Assembly: GCA_903872065.1 (NCBI GenBank)
Contig: CAIQJJ010000752.1
Coordinates: 1 to 33,995, forward strand
Direction: 5' to 3'
Length of the DNA stretch: 33,995 bases
Source of the DNA: an uncultured Anaerolineales bacterium
Lineage (GTDB): Bacteria; Chloroflexota; Anaerolineae; Anaerolineales; UBA4823
The number at the start of each line of letters is the position of its first letter. Position 1 is the first letter of the stretch. Of this stretch, positions 1 to 26,356 are shown one piece after another. The notes under the pieces are model-generated. The model was not told where the DNA came from and searched no databases. It saw only the letters and a list, made by a program, of their open reading frames with translations. The position numbers and the translations under genes were made by a program.

Positions 1-96
1 AATCTTTAACCAATCGGCGCGGTAAGATTTGCCCATTAATTGGATGACCGATAGCTGAAAATTCCAAAAGTCTATAAAAATACGTGTGGTTGTCAC
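1..96 (-). CDS. NYN-domain protein, N-terminal fragment (runs off the left edge)
   Basis: Thirty-two codons are visible, reading leftwards from a GTG at 96. The translation starts (M/V)TTRIFIDFWNFQLS and continues to RADWLKI at the window edge. The hydrophobic strand followed by D-x-W-N is how NYN (PIN-like, Mg-dependent ribonuclease) domains begin, and the D in FIDFWN would be the first catalytic acid. GTG is chosen because GGGAG lies at 107-103 with a 6-nt spacer; no other start fits. The gene lies downstream of the PLD/SNF2 helicase on the same strand, with a terminator hairpin between them. NYN proteins are thought to process or degrade RNA, and some act in phage defence. Family assignment rests on only 32 residues, so other PIN-like proteins are possible. 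Confidence 0.6.
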   Translation of the reverse strand, partial: MTTTRIFIDFWNFQLSVIQLMGKSYRADWLKI

Positions 97-115
97 AAGA
101 AACTCCCGCTTATAG

Positions 116-149
116 AAAAAAAATGGAGAAGCGCGAACGCGCTCCTCCA
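116..149 (-). terminator. Intrinsic terminator between helicase and NYN gene (possible attenuator)
   Basis: On the minus strand a 12-bp stem (one A-C mismatch) with a 2-base loop occupies 149-124 and is followed by eight T (123-116). It lies about 120 nt past the helicase stop and 20 nt before the NYN start, downstream of a candidate promoter at 253-225. It may therefore end the helicase mRNA, attenuate the NYN mRNA, or both. Confidence 0.8.
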
Positions 150-224
150 AAAGTTACATTTACAGATGGACTAATTCCAACAGTCCGGCGGACGCTGGTA
201 CCACCTGTGGGTTCTATTATCCAT

Positions 225-253
225 AAAATACTACAAAAATGGACATTTGTCAA
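225..253 (-). promoter_or_regulatory. Candidate sigma-70-type promoter for the NYN gene
   Basis: Minus strand TTGACA (253-248, perfect -35), a 17-nt spacer, then TATTTT (230-225, weak -10). The predicted start near 218 would give a leader of about 120 nt containing the terminator hairpin at 149-116. The perfect -35 and spacing are seen directly; activity is inferred. Confidence 0.45.
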
Positions 254-270
254 GCTGTACAAGTTGAGCG

Positions 271-3200
271 TCATATTTCAATACCTGACAATCCCAAAGA
301 ACAAATGATATGCGGTTCTTGTATCTCAGCTTCTTCTTCCACCCAACACAGGCGATCTTCGGCGCGCAGGGCCACCACCAGTTCCGCCAATTGTTGATTT
401 TGGATGCCGCTGCGCAGTTGGCGGTTGAGAGTATCGCGCGCCGATTCCCGCAAGGGATAGCGATAAATATCGTCAATGGCTTTGAGCAGTTCTTGCGTCA
501 CCCACAAGGTTCCCTGGTTCTCATCCACAAAGCGTTTCAGACGCTCATACGCACGGAAGCGCGCCCCGGATGGCCGGCCCAACGCCCCGCCAACAGTTCT
601 CTCTTCGTGCAAAACCAACTCGACGCCCTGCTTCACCAGGTCATGGTGGTTCTCGTGGCGAGGCCGGGCTGGCGTATTGGGGGCGCATTCCGCCGCCCGC
701 AGGATGGCAAACTGCGACTCGGTGACAATGCCGCCTTGCTGGTTCACCCAGGTCAAGGCGTCGTTGCCTTCTGGCGTGCGCAGGTACACCAGCACCCCAT
801 CCGGTTCTCTGAGGCTGGGCAGGTGGGCTTTGGTAGAATAGGCCACCGGCGGCAGATCGGGAATGGAACGCTGCAAGGCCGGGTCGAGGGTAATGGCGTT
901 TTTCCAGATCTGATAGGCGTAAGAAGCCAGGTCAACCTCGCTGTCCTCGTCGCCATCCAGAATGCCTGCTTTCTCGTTGTACAGATCCAACACGGCCTGG
1001 GTTTTGTGATCATCCTCGAAGAAAGCTTCATCCGTACCGACCACCTCCGCGTTCTCTTTGAGACGCTGGCGGACGCGTTCGCGCAGGCGGATAATGCGCT
1101 CCACACCCTCGGCCGGCAGGAAGGAATAGCAGAGGATATTCTCAGCTTTTTGGCCGATGCGATCGACACGCCCGGCGCGCTGGATCAGACGGACGATGGC
1201 CCAGGGCAGGTCATAGTTGACCACAATATACCCATCTTGCAGGTTTTGGCCTTCGCTCAACACATCGGTGGCGATCAGGATGCGCAGTTCATCTTCTGGC
1301 GGTATCTGCGCTCGCTTTTCGTTGCTTTCCGGGCTGAAGCGCCAGGCCAGGGCGGTGGGATCGCTGGAGCCGCCTGTAGCGCCGGCGAGACTGGTTAATC
1401 CGTGCGCTTTGAGTTGGGTTTCGAGGTAGCGCACCGTGTCGGCGAACTGGGTGAAGATCAGCGCTTTTTCGTGGGGATGCTGATGGGTTAGCAGGTGAAG
1501 CAAGGCTTGCAGCTTGGTATCTTTGCCGCAATCCCAATGCTGGCATTTGGCCAGGATGTGCATCAATTTATGGGCGTCTTTTCGCAGGTCTTTCGCCAAC
1601 TGGGCGTTGAATAGAGGCGCGCTCAGCCATTTGAAGTGCGAGGGATAGACGGTTTTGTATTGGTGGTAGATTTCTGCCGCGCGCTGTTTGAATTCTGCTT
1701 CGGTGCGCAGGCTTAAACCAGCGGGGCCGGCTGGAGTCTCGATTCCAGATAAGCTATCGGCTAAAGCCTCGCCTCCAGATAAGTCGCCGGTCGAAGTCTC
1801 GATCCCAGATGGGCTATCGGCTAAAGCCTCGCCTTCAGAGGAGGGGGTTTCGTTGTCATCGGCGTCGCCGGGGAGGGGGATGTCGTCGGTGTCCTCGTCG
1901 TTGAGGCGGGTGTCCAATAAGCCAGCATCCTGGGTGCCAATGGGCAAAGGCAGGCTGTTTTCCAGGGCGTAGAGGAAAATGTAGTTGCGCAAAATATGCC
2001 GCTCGACCGACTCCAGGAAAACCTGCCCACTGCTCTCCAGGCGTTTGAACAAATTCGTGCGGCAGAATCCCATCAGGCGCTTGCCGGCGCGCCCCAGGTT
2101 CTGCAGAAGGCGCGCTTCTGCCTGGGTGGGCGGCTGCTTGTGGCGGGACAGTACATAGTTGCCCAGGCCATAGCGCGGCAGATTCAGTTCGTTGATCGCG
2201 TCCACCACATCCGGGGCATACAGGCGGGCGTATTGATCATTTGGGTCGTTCTCGTCAATGACAAACTTCACCGTGCGCGGCAAACGGGTAGGAAAATAGG
2301 ATCGCGTTCCATCGGCCAGCGGTAAATACTTACGGCCCGTCTCTGCCTCAGTTTGGGCGTAATTCTGAATGATGAAACTGCGCGTGCGCCGCACCATGTA
2401 CAGGCGCATGAGTTCGCGCCAGTCATCGGGATATTCGCTCTTTTCAAAGGCGGCCAGTGAATGGGGTGAGCATTGATGCTGGCGAATGAACTCGGTTTCG
2501 CCGATCTCACGCAGCAGCTTTTCGGGGCGAATACCCAGGTCTTTCTCTTCAGGGACGAACAAGCGCAACTGGCTGGAAAGATCGAGATAGGTTTTGTTAT
2601 AGGGCGTGGCCGAAAGCAGGATGCAGCGGCTCTCGTTCTTCTGGATATATTCCTGGATGGCGCGGTAACGCTTGCCCTCCCGGTTACGCAGGTTATGACT
2701 TTCATCCAATATCACCAGGCGATAGCGGCGCAAATTGGGCAGTTCTTGGGTCGCCTGGCTGATGGAGAGAACCCTGGCGCGCAAACGATACTGATCGCGG
2801 TAGCCTTCCCACATCTTGACCAGGTTCTTGGGGCAGATGATCAGCGTTTCTAAATCCTGATCGTCTTCAAAGATGCGGGCAACCGCCGTCGCCATGAGCG
2901 TCTTACCCAGGCCTACCACATCGCCGATCAACACGCCGCCGCGCTTATTCAGGTGGTGCGCCGCGATCTTGACCGCCGCCGTTTGGAAATCGAACAACCG
3001 GTCGCCGAAATCGCGCGGGATGCGAAATTCGTTCAACCCGGCGCGCGCCTCCTGCGAAAGGTGATAGGCCATCTTGACGTAGATATGATAAGGCAGGATG
3101 GTTTGTTCGCGCGCCCAGGATTCTTCAATCACCTGCGCCAGCTCGGCGGATATATCCACACACCAACGATCATTCCAACGATCGTCGAACCATTTGCTCA

Positions 3201-3759
3201 GTTTTTGGCAAGCGTCGCCGTCAAGGACATCCACGTTCAACTCACCCTGCGCAGAAAGCCCTGCCAGGGTCAGGTTACTGCTGCCAATGTACCCAATGAT
3301 CGGGTTGAACAGGTCCTGACGGAAAAGCAAATACAACTTGGCGTGTAAAGGATGACGGAGAAAGAGTTTGACCGTCACTTTCTGGGAGCGAATTTGAGCC
3401 GCCAGGCGACGCAACGCGACTTCGTCAGCGTTGGTCGGCGCGCCAATCGCCACTTGCATGCGAAATTCCTCCGCCAATTTCCGCTTCAGGCGCAGGGAGG
3501 TTTGAGTATCCATTTCGGTTTGCGCGTCTGCGAAGCGATAAAAGGCGCGCAGCTCATCCTGAGGCAAGCGCTGCATCCCCACCAGCAGCCGGACACAGTG
3601 ACCATCGCCCCCGGCCCAATTTTCAATCTTCTGGTCAATTTCCTTCCAACCGCGCAGATTGAAATAGCCCACCGAGAAATCCGCCCGGTAGGCGGCTTGA
3701 AGAGCCTGGCGCAGATCAGGCAGCAGGTGCAAAGAGATATTATCGAAAATTCGCGGCAT
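271..3759 (-). CDS. PLD-like nuclease / SNF2-family helicase fusion
   Basis: A 1162-residue protein. The N-terminus carries a phospholipase D-type HKD motif: H139-x-K141 in HAKLYLLF, then GSSN at 159-162. This matches the arrangement known as PLDc_N_Snf2_like. An SNF2/RapA-type superfamily 2 helicase follows: Walker A GDVVGLGKT at 279-287, DESH at 352-355, SATPY shortly after, then the C-terminal lobe with KALIFTQF and motif VI QRAGRVDRIGQ. It probably translocates on double-stranded DNA, and the single HKD motif suggests nuclease activity as a dimer. Between the two helicase lobes lies an acidic, repeat-derived linker (see 1736-1840). Start: ATG at 3759, with no good ribosome binding site, overlapping by 20 nt a possible upstream ORF that could couple translation. 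Fusions of this type are frequent in defence islands; a role in restriction of foreign DNA is inference, and DNA repair is the alternative. Confidence 0.88.
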   Translation of the reverse strand: MPRIFDNISLHLLPDLRQALQAAYRADFSVGYFNLRGWKEIDQKIENWAGGDGHCVRLLVGMQRLPQDELRAFYRFADAQTEMDTQTSLRLKRKLAEEFRMQVAIGAPTNADEVALRRLAAQIRSQKVTVKLFLRHPLHAKLYLLFRQDLFNPIIGYIGSSNLTLAGLSAQGELNVDVLDGDACQKLSKWFDDRWNDRWCVDISAELAQVIEESWAREQTILPYHIYVKMAYHLSQEARAGLNEFRIPRDFGDRLFDFQTAAVKIAAHHLNKRGGVLIGDVVGLGKTLMATAVARIFEDDQDLETLIICPKNLVKMWEGYRDQYRLRARVLSISQATQELPNLRRYRLVILDESHNLRNREGKRYRAIQEYIQKNESRCILLSATPYNKTYLDLSSQLRLFVPEEKDLGIRPEKLLREIGETEFIRQHQCSPHSLAAFEKSEYPDDWRELMRLYMVRRTRSFIIQNYAQTEAETGRKYLPLADGTRSYFPTRLPRTVKFVIDENDPNDQYARLYAPDVVDAINELNLPRYGLGNYVLSRHKQPPTQAEARLLQNLGRAGKRLMGFCRTNLFKRLESSGQVFLESVERHILRNYIFLYALENSLPLPIGTQDAGLLDTRLNDEDTDDIPLPGDADDNETPSSEGEALADSPSGIETSTGDLSGGEALADSLSGIETPAGPAGLSLRTEAEFKQRAAEIYHQYKTVYPSHFKWLSAPLFNAQLAKDLRKDAHKLMHILAKCQHWDCGKDTKLQALLHLLTHQHPHEKALIFTQFADTVRYLETQLKAHGLTSLAGATGGSSDPTALAWRFSPESNEKRAQIPPEDELRILIATDVLSEGQNLQDGYIVVNYDLPWAIVRLIQRAGRVDRIGQKAENILCYSFLPAEGVERIIRLRERVRQRLKENAEVVGTDEAFFEDDHKTQAVLDLYNEKAGILDGDEDSEVDLASYAYQIWKNAITLDPALQRSIPDLPPVAYSTKAHLPSLREPDGVLVYLRTPEGNDALTWVNQQGGIVTESQFAILRAAECAPNTPARPRHENHHDLVKQGVELVLHEERTVGGALGRPSGARFRAYERLKRFVDENQGTLWVTQELLKAIDDIYRYPLRESARDTLNRQLRSGIQNQQLAELVVALRAEDRLCWVEEEAEIQEPHIICSLGLSGIEI
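1736..1840. repeat. 60-bp imperfect tandem repeat inside the helicase gene
   Basis: A 60-bp unit at 1736-1795 is followed by a second, partial copy of about 45 bp (1796-1840) with few differences; both contain GCTATCGGCTAAAGCCTCGC. In protein terms GEALADSPSGIET is repeated as GEALADSLSGIET within an acidic, Ser/Gly-rich linker between the helicase lobes. The unit looks like an intergenic-type repeat that was captured in frame. Confidence 0.75.
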
Positions 3760-4057
3760 TTAAACGCTCACTGAGAACCCATGATTTCTGATATAGTACC
3801 AGTTCCGACGCCAGAATTTCATCGCTTAGTTCCTTTTCTTGTCTACCGCCCGACATTGTCGGATAATAAAAGTATACTTCATCCACAGGGAAACATGGGG
3901 AAAATCCGATCCGCCCTTCCCGAAATCCTTTTCGAGCGCATTCAGCGTCGAGGGATGGAAAATCCGCCAATAAAACGCGAGGGTCATGCGATAGGCAGAG
4001 ATAATCAAAGTTCCAACCGAGGAAGAGATAGATCTGTTTGATTCTACGAGTGAATGC
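3740..4057 (-). pseudogene. Possible C-terminal remnant of an unknown gene upstream of the helicase
   Basis: An open frame reads leftwards with a protein-like composition. It passes through GWNFDYLCLSHDPRVL, then DEVYFYYPTMSGG, and ends SERLNAANFR at a TAA that overlaps the helicase ATG by 20 nt. I recognise no family. No start codon has a convincing ribosome binding site, and the upstream part runs antisense into the methyltransferase promoter and gene, so it is at best a decayed 3' end. The overlap with the helicase start would allow translational coupling, which fits the lack of a ribosome binding site there. It could equally be chance. Confidence 0.28.
3850..3862. repeat. Perfect 13-nt palindrome CCGACATTGTCGG
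   Basis: CCGACA-T-TGTCGG, about 90 nt upstream of the helicase start. The size and symmetry suit an operator for a dimeric regulator, but no regulator is encoded beside it. It also lies inside the possible ORF remnant, so function is open. Confidence 0.3.
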
Positions 4058-4066
4058 TAGTACAAT
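4038..4066 (+). promoter_or_regulatory. Promoter of the methyltransferase gene
   Basis: TTGATT (4038-4043), a 17-nt spacer, TACAAT (4061-4066). Transcription would start near 4073, ahead of the AAGGAGA ribosome binding site at 4088-4094. The TTG at 4038 is therefore part of a -35 box and not the start codon. Confidence 0.65.
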
Positions 4067-4103
4067 TTGGAAGCGTATCACACCCGAAAGGAGATTTCCC
4101 ACA

Positions 4104-4850
4104 TTGGATATACCACGGATCTTCAATATCACTGAGAGTGCTCACCGCATCCACAACCCGATCACACCCGAAAAGCTCGCCACTCTCGGCGCAGCGCTGC
4201 GTCTGGAATCGGGGGCCCGAGTGCTCGACCTCGGCAGCGGTTCGGGGGAGATGCTTTGCACCTGGGCACGCGATCATGGCATCATCGGCGTCGGCATTGA
4301 CATGAGTCAGTTGTTCAGCGAGCAAGCGAAACGCCGCGCGGAAGAACTCGGCGTCGCCGCTCAAGTCAAGTTCATCCATGACGATGCAGCCGGTTATGTC
4401 TCTGACGAAAAGGTTAGTGTGGCAGCCTGTATCGGCGCCACCTGGATCGGTGGGGGAGTCGCCGGCACGATCGAGCTTCTGGCGCGGAGCCTGTGCGCCG
4501 GAGGGATCATCCTCATTGGCGAGCCCTATTGGCGGCAGTTTCCGCCGACGGAAGAGGTTGCCAAGGAGTGCCATGCCAACTCGATCTCCGATTTTCTCAT
4601 GCTTCCAGAACTTCTCGCATCTTTCGACCGTCTTGGCTACGATGTCGTTGAAATGGTTCTGGCTGACCAAGACGGTTGGGACAGATACGAGGCGGCCAAA
4701 TGGCTCACCATGCGCCGATGGCTTGAAGCCAACCCCGACGACGAGTTGGCGAAAGATATTCGGGCCAAATTGACTTCGGAGCCTGGTCGCTACGCCGCTT
4801 ACACGCGTGAATACCTGGGCTGGGGTGTGTTCGCGCTGATGCCGCGGTGA
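4104..4850 (+). CDS. Class I SAM-dependent methyltransferase
   Basis: A 248-residue soluble protein with the Rossmann-type motif I VLDLGSGSGEML, an acidic residue at the end of strand 2 (GIDMSQLF), and motif FIHDDAAGYV. It transfers a methyl group from S-adenosylmethionine to an unknown small molecule. The N-terminus DIPRIFNITESAHRIHNP is typical of a widespread but uncharacterised subfamily. Start: TTG at 4104, 9 nt after AAGGAGA and downstream of a clear promoter; the longer frame back to 4038 would begin inside that promoter. Length is usual for the family. It is followed after 68 nt by the LarA-like gene; nothing shows the two are related in function. Confidence 0.85.
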   Translation: MDIPRIFNITESAHRIHNPITPEKLATLGAALRLESGARVLDLGSGSGEMLCTWARDHGIIGVGIDMSQLFSEQAKRRAEELGVAAQVKFIHDDAAGYVSDEKVSVAACIGATWIGGGVAGTIELLARSLCAGGIILIGEPYWRQFPPTEEVAKECHANSISDFLMLPELLASFDRLGYDVVEMVLADQDGWDRYEAAKWLTMRRWLEANPDDELAKDIRAKLTSEPGRYAAYTREYLGWGVFALMPR

Positions 4851-22446: not shown

Positions 22447-25400
22447 ATGGCCTCTCGCCTTCCAAGCAAGTCCTATGCCCGCATTTCTGTTCAACTCCCT
22501 CTGCCGGATTTGATCGAGGTTCAACTTGAATCATTTGAACGCCTCAAAAAAGAAGGGCTTGCCGACCTGTTTCACGAGATTACTCCCATTGAGTCTTATA
22601 ACAAAGAGCTAAAGCTCTACTTTCCGAGCAATACCCCCGAAGCCAAGCAATTCGAACTGACCTATTGGTTCGACGAACCCAAACACAATCTTGAAGAGTG
22701 CGTCGAACGCGACCTGACTTACTCCAGCCCGCTGTGGGTCAAAGTTCTGCTGGTGGACAAAGTCAAAGATCAAACCCTCGTCCAGCCCATCTTCCTGGGC
22801 GATTTCCCTGAAATGACTGAGAAGGGGACGTTTATCATCAATGGCACTGAGCGCGTCGTTGTCTCGCAGTTGATCCGCTCGCCCGGCGTTTATTTCGAGA
22901 AGACCGAAGATCGCTCAACGGGGCGCGCCCAGGCGATGGCCAAGCTGATCCCCGATCGCGGCGCCTGGATGGAGTTTGAAACCCGCAAAGCGGATTACCT
23001 CACCCTGCGGTTCAACCGCAAGCGCACCGTCCCTGTCACCATCTTTTTGCGCGCCCTGGCCGCCGTCAATGATGGCCTGGCCGATTCGCCCATTAAGACC
23101 GGCAGCGATGAGGAGATTTTGAGCCTGTTCGCCGATGTGGATAATAACCCCGACCGTATGTACATTGCCTCATCCTTCTACCAGGAACCAGAATGGGACC
23201 TGGGCAGCGGGATGAGCATCGGCGAGGCGGCAATCCTGGAGTTCTTCAAGCGCATGCGGCCCGGCGACCCGGCGACGCTCGACAACGCCCGCGAATTTCT
23301 GATCGAGCAGCTCTTCGATCAGCGCCACTACGATCTCGAACGCGTGGGGCGTTATAAGCTCAACCAAAAACTCGGCCTGCGCGAGTTCATCCCCGTCACG
23401 CATCGCACCATCACCAAGCGCGACATCATCGGCCTGCTGCGCCGCATGATCAACATCAATAACGGCGTGCAAGAAGCCGATGATATTGACCACCTGGGCA
23501 ACCGCCGCGCCAAGACGGTCGGCGAACTGATCCAGAACAAGCTGCGCATCGGCCTGCGCCGCATGGAGCGCGTGATCAAAGAGCGTATGTCCATCCGCGA
23601 TCAGGAACAACTGACCCCCCGTCACCCTGATCAACATCCGCCCGGTGGTCGCCGCCCTGCGCGAATTCTTTGGCTCCAGTCAGCTTTCGCAGTTTATGGA
23701 TCAAACCAACCCGCTGGCCGAGCTGCGCCACAAACGCACCCTCTCGGCGCTTGGCCCTGGCGGTCTGCGGCGTGAGCGCGCCGGCTTCGATGTGCGCGAT
23801 GTCCACCATTCCCATTATGGCCGCATTTGCCCCATCGAAACGCCAGAAGGCCCGAACATCGGTTTGATCGGCCGTCTCTCGACCTTTGCTCGCGTCAACG
23901 AGTATGGATTCATCGAAACCCCCTACCGCCGCGTGCGCAAGACCTTGAAACCGGATGATCCCCGCCTGGTGGGACGCATTCCCCGCGAAAACCTGGCCGA
24001 TCCGGCGACGGGCGAAGTGATCGCCAAAGAAAACGAGCGCATCACCGCCGCTGCAGCCGAGCGCATCGCCAAACTCAAGGTTTCTGAAATCCTGGTTGTG
24101 CCTTTCGTGACCGAGGAAACCGAGTATCTCTCCGCGGATGTCGAAGACCGCTTCGTGATCGCCCAGGCCAACGCCCCACTGACCGATTACAAAGAATTTG
24201 TGCGCCGGCGCATCTCTTCCCGTTACAAATCCGGCTTTATGTTTACCACCTCGGACAATATTGACTACATGGATGTCGCCCCGCACCAGGTGGTTGGTAT
24301 TTCGGCGGCCTTGATCCCCTTCCTCGAGCATGACGACGCCAACCGCGCCCTGATGGGTTCCAACATGCAGGCGCAGGCGGTGCCGCTGCTGCGCCCGGAC
24401 ATTCCGCAGGTCTCGACAGGCATGGAATACCACGCCGCGATGGATTCGGGCCAGGTGGTCATCGCCGAAGAGGACGGCGAGGTAACCTCGGTAACAGGCA
24501 GCACGATCACCATGCGCACCAACCAAAGTCAATCGCATACCTACACCCTGCGCAAATACCAACGTTCTAACCAAAGCACCTGCATTGACCAACGCCCGGC
24601 GGTGGTCAAGGGGCAGCGTGTACGCAAAGGCGAGGTCATTGCCGACTCATCCTCCACCGAAAGCGGCGAACTGGCCCTGGGACAGAATGTCACCATTGCC
24701 TTCATCTCTTGGGAAGGGGCCAACTTTGAAGACGCGATTGTCATTTCGGAGCGCCTGGTGCAGGATGACAAATTTACCTCGGTGCATATCGAGAAATACG
24801 AGGTCGAGTCTCGCGACACCCGTCTTGGGCCAGAGGAAATTACCCGCGATATCCCCAACGTAGGCGACGAGGCGATCAAAGACCTCGACGAACGCGGCAT
24901 CATTCGCGTGGGAGCTGAAGTCGGCCCGAACGACATCCTGGTGGGCAAGATTTCGCCCAAAGGTGAAAAAGAACTGACCCCCGAAGAGCGCCTGCTGCGC
25001 GCCATCTTCGGTGAAAAATCGCGCGATGTCAAAGACACCTCACTGCGCATGCCGCACGGCGAGCGCGGCAAGGTAGTGGATGTCAAAGTCTTCACGCGCG
25101 AAGACAACGCCGATCTCTCAGCCGGGGTGGATATGATGGTGCGCGTCTCGGTGGCGCAGCGCCGCAAAATCACCGCCGGCGACAAGATGGCCGGCCGCCA
25201 CGGCAACAAAGGCGTGGTCTCGCGCGTCGTCGCGGTCGAGGATATGCCCTTCCTCGAAGACGGGACACCTGTAGACATCATTCTCAACCCCACCGGCGTC
25301 CCCGGTCGTATGAACCTGGGCCAAATTTTGGAAGCGCACCTGGGTTGGGCCTCCAGCCGGCTTGGCTTCCGCGCCATCACCCCAGTTTTTGACGGCGCTA

Positions 25401-26356
25401 CTGAAGTCGAGATTGAGGCTGAACTGGCTCGCTCCTGGCTGCTGGATCGCGCCTGGAAATTCACCGGTGAGATCGCCTGGCGCTGGTTGAAAGAACAGGG
25501 TTACGACCCCGAAACCATCCAAGATGATGACGAAGTGCGCCGCCTCTACATGGAAACCTGGCTGGGTGGACGAGGCTACAATGTCTATAAGATGATCTCC
25601 GATCCCACCTATGCGCGGCATTCGGCGCTGCGTGAATGGCTGCGCGATCAGGAGCTTGACCCGGACGCAATCGCCAACCTGGATGACTCGAAGCTGCCGC
25701 TCGCGCAGCGCCAGAGCAATAACAGCGCGGCGATCAACAACTGCATCCGGCTGTGGATGCTCGAAATGGGCACCGACCCGGCTGGAATGCCGGATGAAGC
25801 TCTGCCAGCCAAGGCCGAAGAAGTGGCCTTGCTGACCGGCCACCCGGTGCCGACTCTGGGAAAGCAGTATCTGCGTGATGGGCAATCGGGCCTCCCTTAC
25901 GACCGTCCCGTCACGGTGGGCGTGATGACCATGCTCAAGCTGCACCACCTGGTAGAGGACAAAGTCCATGCCCGTTCGACCGGCCCTTACAGCCTTGTCT
26001 CGCAGCAGCCGCTCGGCGGTAAGGCTCAATTCGGCGGCCAGCGCTTCGGTGAAATGGAAGTCTGGGCGCTGGAAGCTTATGGGGCGGCCTACATCCTGCA
26101 GGAAATGCTGACCGTCAAATCGGACGATGTCCAGGGACGCGTCAAGACCTACGAGGCGATTGTCAAAGGCGAACCCATCGAAGAACCTTCCATCCCGGCT
26201 TCGTTCCGTGTGTTGGTCAAAGAGCTTCAATCGCTGGGCCTGTCGGTCGAGGCAATCACCGACGGCGGCGACCTGATCAAGTTTGGCAAAGACGAAGAGC
26301 GCTCCAAGCCGCCCAAGCTGGCCACCGGTCTACTCGGACTTGGTGAGGAGTATTAA
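22447..26356 (+). CDS. rpoB: RNA polymerase beta subunit RpoB (frame broken by one extra C)
   Basis: Beta subunit of RNA polymerase, about 1302 residues once the frame is joined. The first frame (22447 to about 23620) covers the protrusion and lobe domains, starting [20 protein letters not shown]; the second frame covers the rest to 26356. Seen: rifampicin-pocket region [71 protein letters not shown] and the C-terminal [20 protein letters not shown]. Joining requires removal of one C in the C6 run 23615-23620, giving [22 protein letters not shown] at 22447 follows AGGAG. It has its own promoter and leader; rplL does not precede it and rpoC does not follow it. Because the protein is essential, the shift is either a sequencing error or is corrected by slippage. 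Confidence 0.95.
23615..23620 (+). other. Frameshift site in rpoB: run of six C
   Basis: The run ACCCCCCGTC must lose one C to read Thr-Pro-Val; as given, the first frame ends 155 nt later in nonsense. All residues on both sides match RpoB, so no other change is needed. Confidence 0.9.

Follow-up and report, generated by a model that had tools for sequence, protein, structure and literature searches.

Several bacterial systems combine an RNA with a ribonuclease-type gene, among them the type III toxin-antitoxins (ToxIN, CptIN and TenpIN) and AbiF with the abiF RNA (RF03085). NYN nucleases, which have a PIN-like fold, recur in defence loci, and to our knowledge no control has been described for their zinc-ribbon family. 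Here, we analysed a stretch of 33,995 nucleotides (the window) from an uncultured Anaerolineales bacterium (contig CAIQJJ010000752.1, hereafter C752, of assembly GCA_903872065.1), whose first bases carry the beginning of a zinc-ribbon NYN nuclease gene, a structured RNA of about 100 nt and a gene for an HKD nuclease–SNF2 helicase fusion, all on the minus strand. Judged by comparative sequence evidence, the zinc-ribbon NYN family is very probably linked genetically to this structured RNA.

The RNA–NYN module resembles type III toxin-antitoxins and AbiF in that a small structured RNA adjoins a ribonuclease-type gene, and in its plasmid and viral carriers. It departs from them in the nuclease, a zinc-ribbon NYN protein instead of ToxN or HEPN (set apart by NYN annotation), and in the RNA, which is built of two dissimilar hairpins and may lie on the opposite strand. 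Compared with type III repeats, the RNA has two units of an AUnnnnACCC segment plus hairpin, recognised by eye, and these hairpins are unlike in sequence. The helicase is comparable to Type-2 BREX-related (BR) systems, which combine an N-terminal HKD nuclease on a Swi2/Snf2 helicase with an N6 adenine methyltransferase (Rakesh & Krishnan 2026, PMC12839542).

A structured RNA family beside zinc-ribbon NYN genes

Members of the RNA family are ~70–105 nt long and form two hairpins, P1 and P2, usually with an AUnnnnACCC-like segment ahead of each; P1, P2 and the ACCC segments make up a conserved scaffold around an inner part of P1 that varies in length. Promoter-like −35/−10 sequences, judged by eye, stand directly before most copies, including that of locus L155, and a U-run follows many of them. 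A MAFFT alignment of 16 leaders analysed with RNAalifold placed P1 out of register and revealed P2 alone, and we therefore took the route of covariance models. The model R2, made from 14 copies of 13 loci, gave 20 matches at an expect value (E) of at most 5 when searched over 100 loci, all of them adjoining NYN genes and together covering 19 of 21 NYN loci (13 trained, 6 untrained), with no match at this threshold in the 78 helicase loci used as controls. Among untrained loci, L155 matched at 1.1e-6, and L151–L154 and L156 at 5.6e-4 to 0.064. The model R1, made from 7 alignable copies, produced 17 matches at E ≤ 5 over the 100 loci including the 7 trained copies, with untrained sense matches in L157 (1.8e-6), L137 (4.6e-5) and L165 (0.007), and with untrained matches opposite to the NYN strand, not marked beforehand, in L172 (twice, 0.012) and L164 (0.032). 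A smaller R1 search added L171 (0.0029, opposite strand), L156 and one more antisense match.

The helices are supported by covariation. Over 19 distinct rows, 98.9% of cells were paired, compared with 68.6 in shuffles; all 14 pairs showed double changes (75 cells versus 20.6 in shuffles), and the covariation score was 0.818 against 0.231 for shuffled rows and at most 0.119 with the partner slid; these values come from an alignment made to fit the structure, a procedure that works in its favour, and related rows inflate the shuffle control. Support extended to both helices (5/5 pairs in P1, 9/9 in P2; the window lies outside that alignment), and a 13-row alignment, fitted in the same way, behaved similarly with 13 of 14 pairs. 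The two-hairpin shape is also the minimum free energy (MFE) fold of most single copies, L136, L151 and L173 being exceptions, and 20 of 20 copies tested folded better than their shuffles (z −2.5 to −8.0, 60 shuffles each).

In a blind R2 scan of 400 Chloroflexota genomes, two genomes gave matches at E ≤ 0.05, both at NYN genes: G442, which was in training, and the untrained G341 (2.7e-6, the same place as L155). A pattern derived from the L147–L150 copies matched only those four contigs among the viral contigs. Neither the window RNA nor those of ten NYN loci matched any of the 4227 Rfam families at gathering scores, and we found no NYN–RNA module in the literature on NYN with RNA or on HEC-09, a body of text that leaves most subscription papers uncovered and does not show absence from print.

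In the window, the RNA occupies 118–220 (minus strand). R2 run with filters off over bases 1–4000 of this untrained sequence gave a best match of 17.7 bits (E 0.0049), the next scoring 3.0 bits, and the region folds better than shuffles (z −4.9 for bases 118–220, −3.2 for 90–222). In the MFE structure, helix P1 (162–208; bases 208–201 paired with 169–162) encloses an inner hairpin (198–177); helix P2 with a following T8 (124–149) resembles an intrinsic terminator with 11 pairs and a loop of 4, although six terminator-like sites were found in bases 1–4300 where 4.6 are expected, so that this match by itself is weak. A sigma-70-like promoter for the RNA/NYN unit, TTGACA-17-TATTTT, agrees with 10 of 12 consensus positions at 225–253, one of seven promoter-like sites in bases 1–4300 against 2.4 expected. 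The same layout of promoter, RNA and terminator, with different stem sequences, precedes the NYN gene of L137, from the order-level relative G056. A known riboswitch was considered, the T-box in particular, and rejected: at gathering scores Rfam had no match to the RNA, and a search of bases 1–420 at E ≤ 10 returned no credible family. An initial annotation of this DNA, made from the letters alone, mentioned neither the structured RNA nor the promoter or terminator.

The NYN gene itself is represented by its first 32 codons (1–96, minus strand), with a GTG start at 96, an upstream GGGAG and the motif IFIDFWN; only these codons are present because the window starts at base 1 of the contig, and the contig end cuts the gene. 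The 32-residue fragment had no Pfam match, whereas it hit proteins annotated as NYN domain-containing in three of three plasmid matches (best E 4e-3) and was 65% identical to a 285-residue frame in G056 (E 9e-11). The window fragment RIFIDFWNFQLS..YRADW aligns with four relatives and holds the FxDFWN start and the R.DW segment of the zinc-ribbon NYN family; the remainder of the domain, with the zinc ribbon, lies beyond the contig end. The NYN-type RNase on the helicase strand that the initial annotation had named can thus be assigned to a family, from no more than 32 codons of a truncated gene.

Among eight aligned NYN relatives, FxDxWN, the C..C pairs and several acidic positions are invariant in all. 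The family is rare, occurring in 8 of 400 Chloroflexota genomes (one, G401, only at 6.9e-12) and in 1 of 385 from the class to which a Rhizobium belongs, with carriers that include 5 plasmid records and 7 viral contigs; no INPHARED phage record matched at E ≤ 1e-5. On two viral contigs the gene adjoins terminase- and portal-like genes (by eye), and the small NYN plasmids contain little besides NYN, replication and mobilisation genes and a few hypothetical genes.

Several observations weigh against the link between RNA and nuclease, or against particular copies. R1 was seeded from regions that had been picked by eye upstream of NYN genes, 4 of its 17 matches were antisense to its own copies (the L147 antisense match reached 21.1 bits, compared with 21.9 for L164), and the smaller search returned one unrelated match (L137:16112-16199). 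Because of these antisense matches, the strand of L164, L171 and L172 cannot be fixed from R1 alone; these three loci were then part of the R2 training set, and in L172 the model misplaced P1. R2 found no RNA in the NYN loci L166 and L173, and the blind scan, run with stricter filters, missed 5 of 7 genomes that have a strong NYN match. Some loci are near-identical (L151–L153, from one genus, and L148/L149). The window copy is divergent, its second ACCC segment reading AACUUUU, and neither R1 nor R2 returned it at E ≤ 5 when 1.6 Mb were searched.

Position and possible role of the RNA

Across 20 modules (the window included, L172 counted once), the RNA lies upstream of NYN on the same strand in 16, divergently upstream in three (L164, L171 and L172) and convergently downstream in one (L155), so that, set against the type III layout, four of the 20 RNAs are on the opposite strand. 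The strand of L164, L171 and L172 rests on the order motif–P1–linker–P2–U-run read by eye on the opposite strand. In 14 of the 16 same-strand modules the RNA ends 5–24 nt before the start codon; the distance is 57 nt in L154, and in L156 the RNA overlaps the called open reading frame (ORF). Since strand and side change while the RNA stays beside NYN, the arrangement of the sequences indicates that the RNA is probably a gene of its own, separate from NYN.

The same data bear on two other readings. The RNA could be a cis-regulatory 5' leader, where NYN or another factor binds or cleaves the leader, P2 attenuates, or ACCC masks the ribosome site. The predominance of upstream same-strand copies and their short distance to the NYN start codon speak for a leader and against a separate gene, as do the clear terminator-like sites that immediately precede NYN in the window and in L137, and the ACCC segments, which in some copies could pair with a GGG-rich ribosome site (by eye). 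Under a loose rule, 8 of 13 copies have a terminator-like U-run after P2, and the others may read through into NYN; moreover, the NYN frame of the convergent locus L155 lacks an N-terminus, which lessens the weight of that copy. Nevertheless, the divergent and convergent copies are each U-rich at the 3' end of the RNA strand, and an RNA on the strand opposite to NYN could not act there as a leader in cis, which makes this reading rather unlikely. The RNA might also serve as guide or scaffold in an NYN ribonucleoprotein directed against foreign nucleic acid, a role that would agree with a conserved scaffold of P1, P2 and ACCC around a length-variable inner P1, and with defence-type and mobile carriers; however, the inner P1 folds as a hairpin in many copies and the family is found in few genomes, and we regard such a role as improbable.

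Instead, by analogy with type III toxin-antitoxins and the abiF RNA, we tentatively favour, at a little short of even confidence, an antitoxin RNA that restrains an NYN RNase toxin in a type III-like manner. The NYN protein would be an endoribonuclease, and the RNA would bind and inhibit it. The order promoter, RNA, terminator and nuclease seen in the window would yield mostly RNA and some NYN mRNA, and hence RNA in excess over nuclease. Such a module may serve plasmid or prophage maintenance, or abortive infection; the small plasmids with little besides NYN fit a maintenance role. Slightly more tentative still is the broader proposal of a new class, in which a zinc-ribbon NYN ribonuclease is held by a trans-acting two-hairpin RNA, occurs on small plasmids, in viruses and on chromosomes across two or more phyla, and moves in and out of defence loci.

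Among annotated defence families, the NYN homologue of plasmid pKHC110_1 matches two PADLOC entries, HEC-09 (1.2e-11) and NYN/LabA (5.3e-5), both partially and weakly (residues 125-194 and 142-186). HEC stands for 'Hma embedded candidates' (PMC10855318), and the available parts of the literature on HEC-09 mention no RNA. In comparison, the NYN gene of G056 follows an Hma/BREX-like gene set (by eye). There, L137:1670-13646 on contig C8 carries genes labelled by eye as an SNF2 helicase, an Abi-like gene, a methyltransferase and a DUF499-like ATPase, then a broken NYN gene with its RNA, a set that resembles an Hma/BREX-related locus (by eye). The G056 NYN protein departs from the family after its zinc ribbon (read by eye). 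Rfam placed an abiF RNA (RF03085) just before the Abi-like gene of this locus, at 37.3 bits compared with a gathering cut-off of 37.

The helicase, its methyltransferase partner and the NYN module

The gene upstream of the RNA (271–3759, minus strand) encodes a protein of 1162 residues with an HKD (PLD-type) nuclease domain at residues ~20-195 and a helicase core at ~255-875, as identified from the ORF call, Pfam, PADLOC and alignment. Pfam matches were PLDc_2 (3.4e-8), SNF2-rel (1.1e-11) and Helicase_C (1.8e-15), and the best PADLOC match was C3a139 'HKD+Snf2' (1.3e-50, residues 13-910 on profile positions 12-768 of 948), whose fusion of an HKD nuclease with an SNF2 helicase the window protein shares along the profile. 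An alignment of 43 sequences shows little or no variation in the HxK motif (H139, K141), Walker A (G279-T287), D352/E353/S354 or the QR.GR.DR motif; the 1162-residue fusion described in the initial annotation is genuine, with frame and motifs intact. For DISARM DrmD, the helicase scored 130.6 bits and did not reach the curated cut-off of 610. Its predicted structure was of modest quality (mean predicted local distance difference test, pLDDT, 72) and matched only generic SNF2 enzymes, RapA first.

Close homologues at E ≤ 1e-60 are patchily distributed (4 of 61 related genomes, the window's own included), and 26 plasmid records carry homologues at E ≤ 1e-40. The scan of genome contigs contributed the best 80 of 426 confirmed relatives (62-70% identity, many phyla) and viral contigs a further 7, giving a set of 87 helicase loci, of which all but L109 and L110 (85 loci) include an ORF with a helicase match at E ≤ 1e-30. 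The window's own genome encodes the helicase a second time, at 74% identity, on the 3.7-kb contig C546, and in a FastTree tree of 90 helicases the window protein groups with this copy, G022 and L024 (100%). After the second copy, ~60-bp tandem repeats (by eye) run up to the contig end (L007:3594-3747) and are the likely cause of the assembly break. The own genome also carries another HKD-SNF2 helicase, 35% identical (L018, contig C705:1-6297); before it lie part of a methyltransferase gene and two genes resembling DarT and DarG (by eye).

Clustering 1243 ORFs from the 87 loci, called by a simple longest-ORF rule, revealed one dominant neighbour, a methyltransferase of ~1090 residues present in 81 loci and always on the helicase strand, ahead of a ~213-residue protein in 31 loci and a next cluster in just 6. 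The methyltransferase was located downstream of the helicase in 80 of the 82 loci with at least 300 bp of downstream sequence, and tblastn found it beneath a spurious antisense ORF in the remaining two (L050 and L077), making 82 of 82. The gap between the two genes is at most 23 nt in 55 of the 80 loci and reaches 1805 nt. Pfam assigned Eco57I and MmeI methyltransferase domains to the large neighbour (3 scanned) and DNA_processg_A (DprA) to the ~213-residue one (1 scanned). Modelled with AlphaFold (mean pLDDT 84), the L024 methyltransferase was closest to BrxX/PglX (9ewz, 8c45; E 1.9e-15), followed by CamA, DrdV and MmeI. The methyltransferase downstream in 82 of 82 loci identifies the helicase as the effector of a restriction-like system, in which the methyltransferase would mark self DNA and the ATP-driven helicase would cut unmarked DNA with its HKD nuclease. 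The patchy distribution and the conserved partner bear out the earlier view of a defence-type family, and by its sequence the window helicase is an ordinary member of an already known defence-type (anti-phage restriction) family.

Scored against two references, with L050 and L077 typed by hand after tblastn, the exchangeable METHYLTRANSFERASES was of type A in 70 of 83 typed loci and of type B, ~31% identical to the type A reference L024, in 13. The A/B label changes at least 11 times over the helicase tree, a rough count given that 31 of 87 inner branches are weakly supported, and sister helicases carry different types in L079 (A) and L069 (B) as well as in the pairs L066/L094 and L025/L039. 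Such changes, expected of the exchanged specificity modules of a restriction system, suggest from the sequences a constant effector with repeatedly swapped methyltransferases.

In comparison with Type-2 BR systems, the helicase loci share an HKD-Swi2/Snf2 helicase with a methyltransferase and differ in having no recurrent DUF499-like or DUF3780-like gene; no such cluster appeared among the predicted ORFs of the 87 loci, with Pfam run on the first three clusters. Likewise, the L024 methyltransferase has a BrxX-like predicted fold, whereas a full BREX gene set is missing: the protein scored 71.4 bits against a curated PglX cut-off of 500, and the commonest neighbour after the methyltransferase and the DprA-like protein is confined to 6 loci. 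Two partner methyltransferases were scanned, those of L024 and of Synechocystis plasmid pSYSX, and matched PADLOC REase_MTase_IIG PDLC03628 at 1092.5 and 2661.8 bits; PADLOC keeps this entry separate from C3a139, in contrast to the clustering of helicase and methyltransferase in all 82 loci. The PDLC03628 'Type IIG' match spans the Synechocystis methyltransferase end to end (L113:13132-16431), next to a helicase with an HKD nuclease domain, which suggests that the profile was made from the pSYSX protein. In pSYSX (L113), a small gene and an annotated VapC split the pair. The plasmid is reported to carry two methyltransferases, M.Ssp6803IV and V, the latter being Slr6095 of a type I system, and we infer that M.Ssp6803IV is the partner of the helicase. 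The gap between helicase and methyltransferase contains toxin-antitoxin-like genes in L113, L032, L062 and L065 (VapC annotated in L113, the others by eye), as if it were a common insertion slot.

How the window helicase relates to the NYN gene depends on these neighbourhoods. The initial annotation had suggested that helicase and NYN RNase act together, as they would in a single defence operon, and the two genes are indeed neighbours on one strand. L082 has an NYN gene of another subfamily inside a helicase–methyltransferase–DprA operon, and the toxin-antitoxin-like genes in some helicase–methyltransferase gaps offer a parallel. Yet none of the 12 NYN loci compared (L147–L158, 3.6 to 16.6 kb each) carries the helicase or its methyltransferase at E ≤ 1e-10, and two NYN profiles found, among the predicted ORFs of the 87 helicase loci, one NYN gene, that of L082. 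Homologues of the two genes are thus almost never neighbours, and these counts led us to reject a single operon. In the window, 174 bp with promoter-like and terminator-like sites separate helicase and NYN, much more than the usual gap before the methyltransferase, and joint work of the two proteins is very improbable. Whether the helicase still has a methyltransferase is a separate question. None is visible beside it, the contig ending after the 32 NYN codons; repeats rather than a methyltransferase follow the C546 copy, and type A methyltransferases accompany the closest typed helicases, G022 and L024, while a type B fragment is all that the own genome shows, all of which would fit an orphan or decaying effector that has lost its partner. 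Against such decay, frame and motifs are intact, both copies end at contig breaks, and the genome's clearest partner-type methyltransferase, the C-terminal part of a type B protein (453 codons, 62% identical to the corresponding part of L070), opens contig C408, where it can be linked to neither helicase of the genome. We consider an orphaned helicase somewhat unlikely.

We give even chances to two unrelated defence-type elements, the HKD-SNF2 effector and the RNA–NYN module, abutting at the contig end. Because other loci hold VapC or toxin-antitoxin-like pairs in the gap, the module of the window probably sits as a passenger in a slot where insertions are common, and it may have reached its site behind the helicase by insertion where toxin-antitoxin genes sit elsewhere. 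As an observation of its own, L082:18833-20479 within a helicase–methyltransferase operon encodes a 648-residue protein, the NYN of the other subfamily and a DprA-like protein.

Surroundings of the contig end and meaning of the module

Base 1 of the window is base 1 of C752, one of 927 contigs of a 7.49-Mb genome, so the leftward remainder of any cluster is not on this contig. The initial annotation had placed the rest of the cluster to the left of the window; the contig does end there, and it offers no sequence further left. A leftward extension was tried and dropped, the first 200 bases matching the rest of the genome only over spans of 19-30 nt, as was a junction of C752 with C408 or C546, whose ends show no overlap by eye. 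GC content is 0.53-0.60 over bases 1–4500, compared with 0.62-0.69 from 4.5 to 9.5 kb; the lower GC formerly ascribed to the flanks is real, although equally low values occur elsewhere in the window. The putative gene remnant at 3740–4057 is a 130-residue frame without a Pfam match. Nine of ten window ORFs scanned with Pfam belong to metabolic, transport, regulatory or housekeeping families and none to a defence family, indicating that the visible side of the window is not a defence island. At 22447–26356, the N-terminal part of an RNA polymerase beta subunit (442 residues) overlaps a 903-residue frame read in a different register; the two may be a single rpoB that a frameshift or an assembly error has divided.

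The helicase system is already known, and defence annotation would become cleaner if the PADLOC entries 'HKD+Snf2' and 'Type IIG' were treated as a single restriction system in which a conserved effector is combined with interchangeable methyltransferases. What appears to be new is the covarying RNA family tied to the zinc-ribbon NYN nuclease, a small unit of ~100 nt plus ~210 residues that occurs, in three orientations, on viral contigs, on proteobacterial plasmids and in genomes of Chloroflexota. If the RNA does act as an antitoxin, RNA-restrained toxins would extend to the NYN/PIN-like fold.

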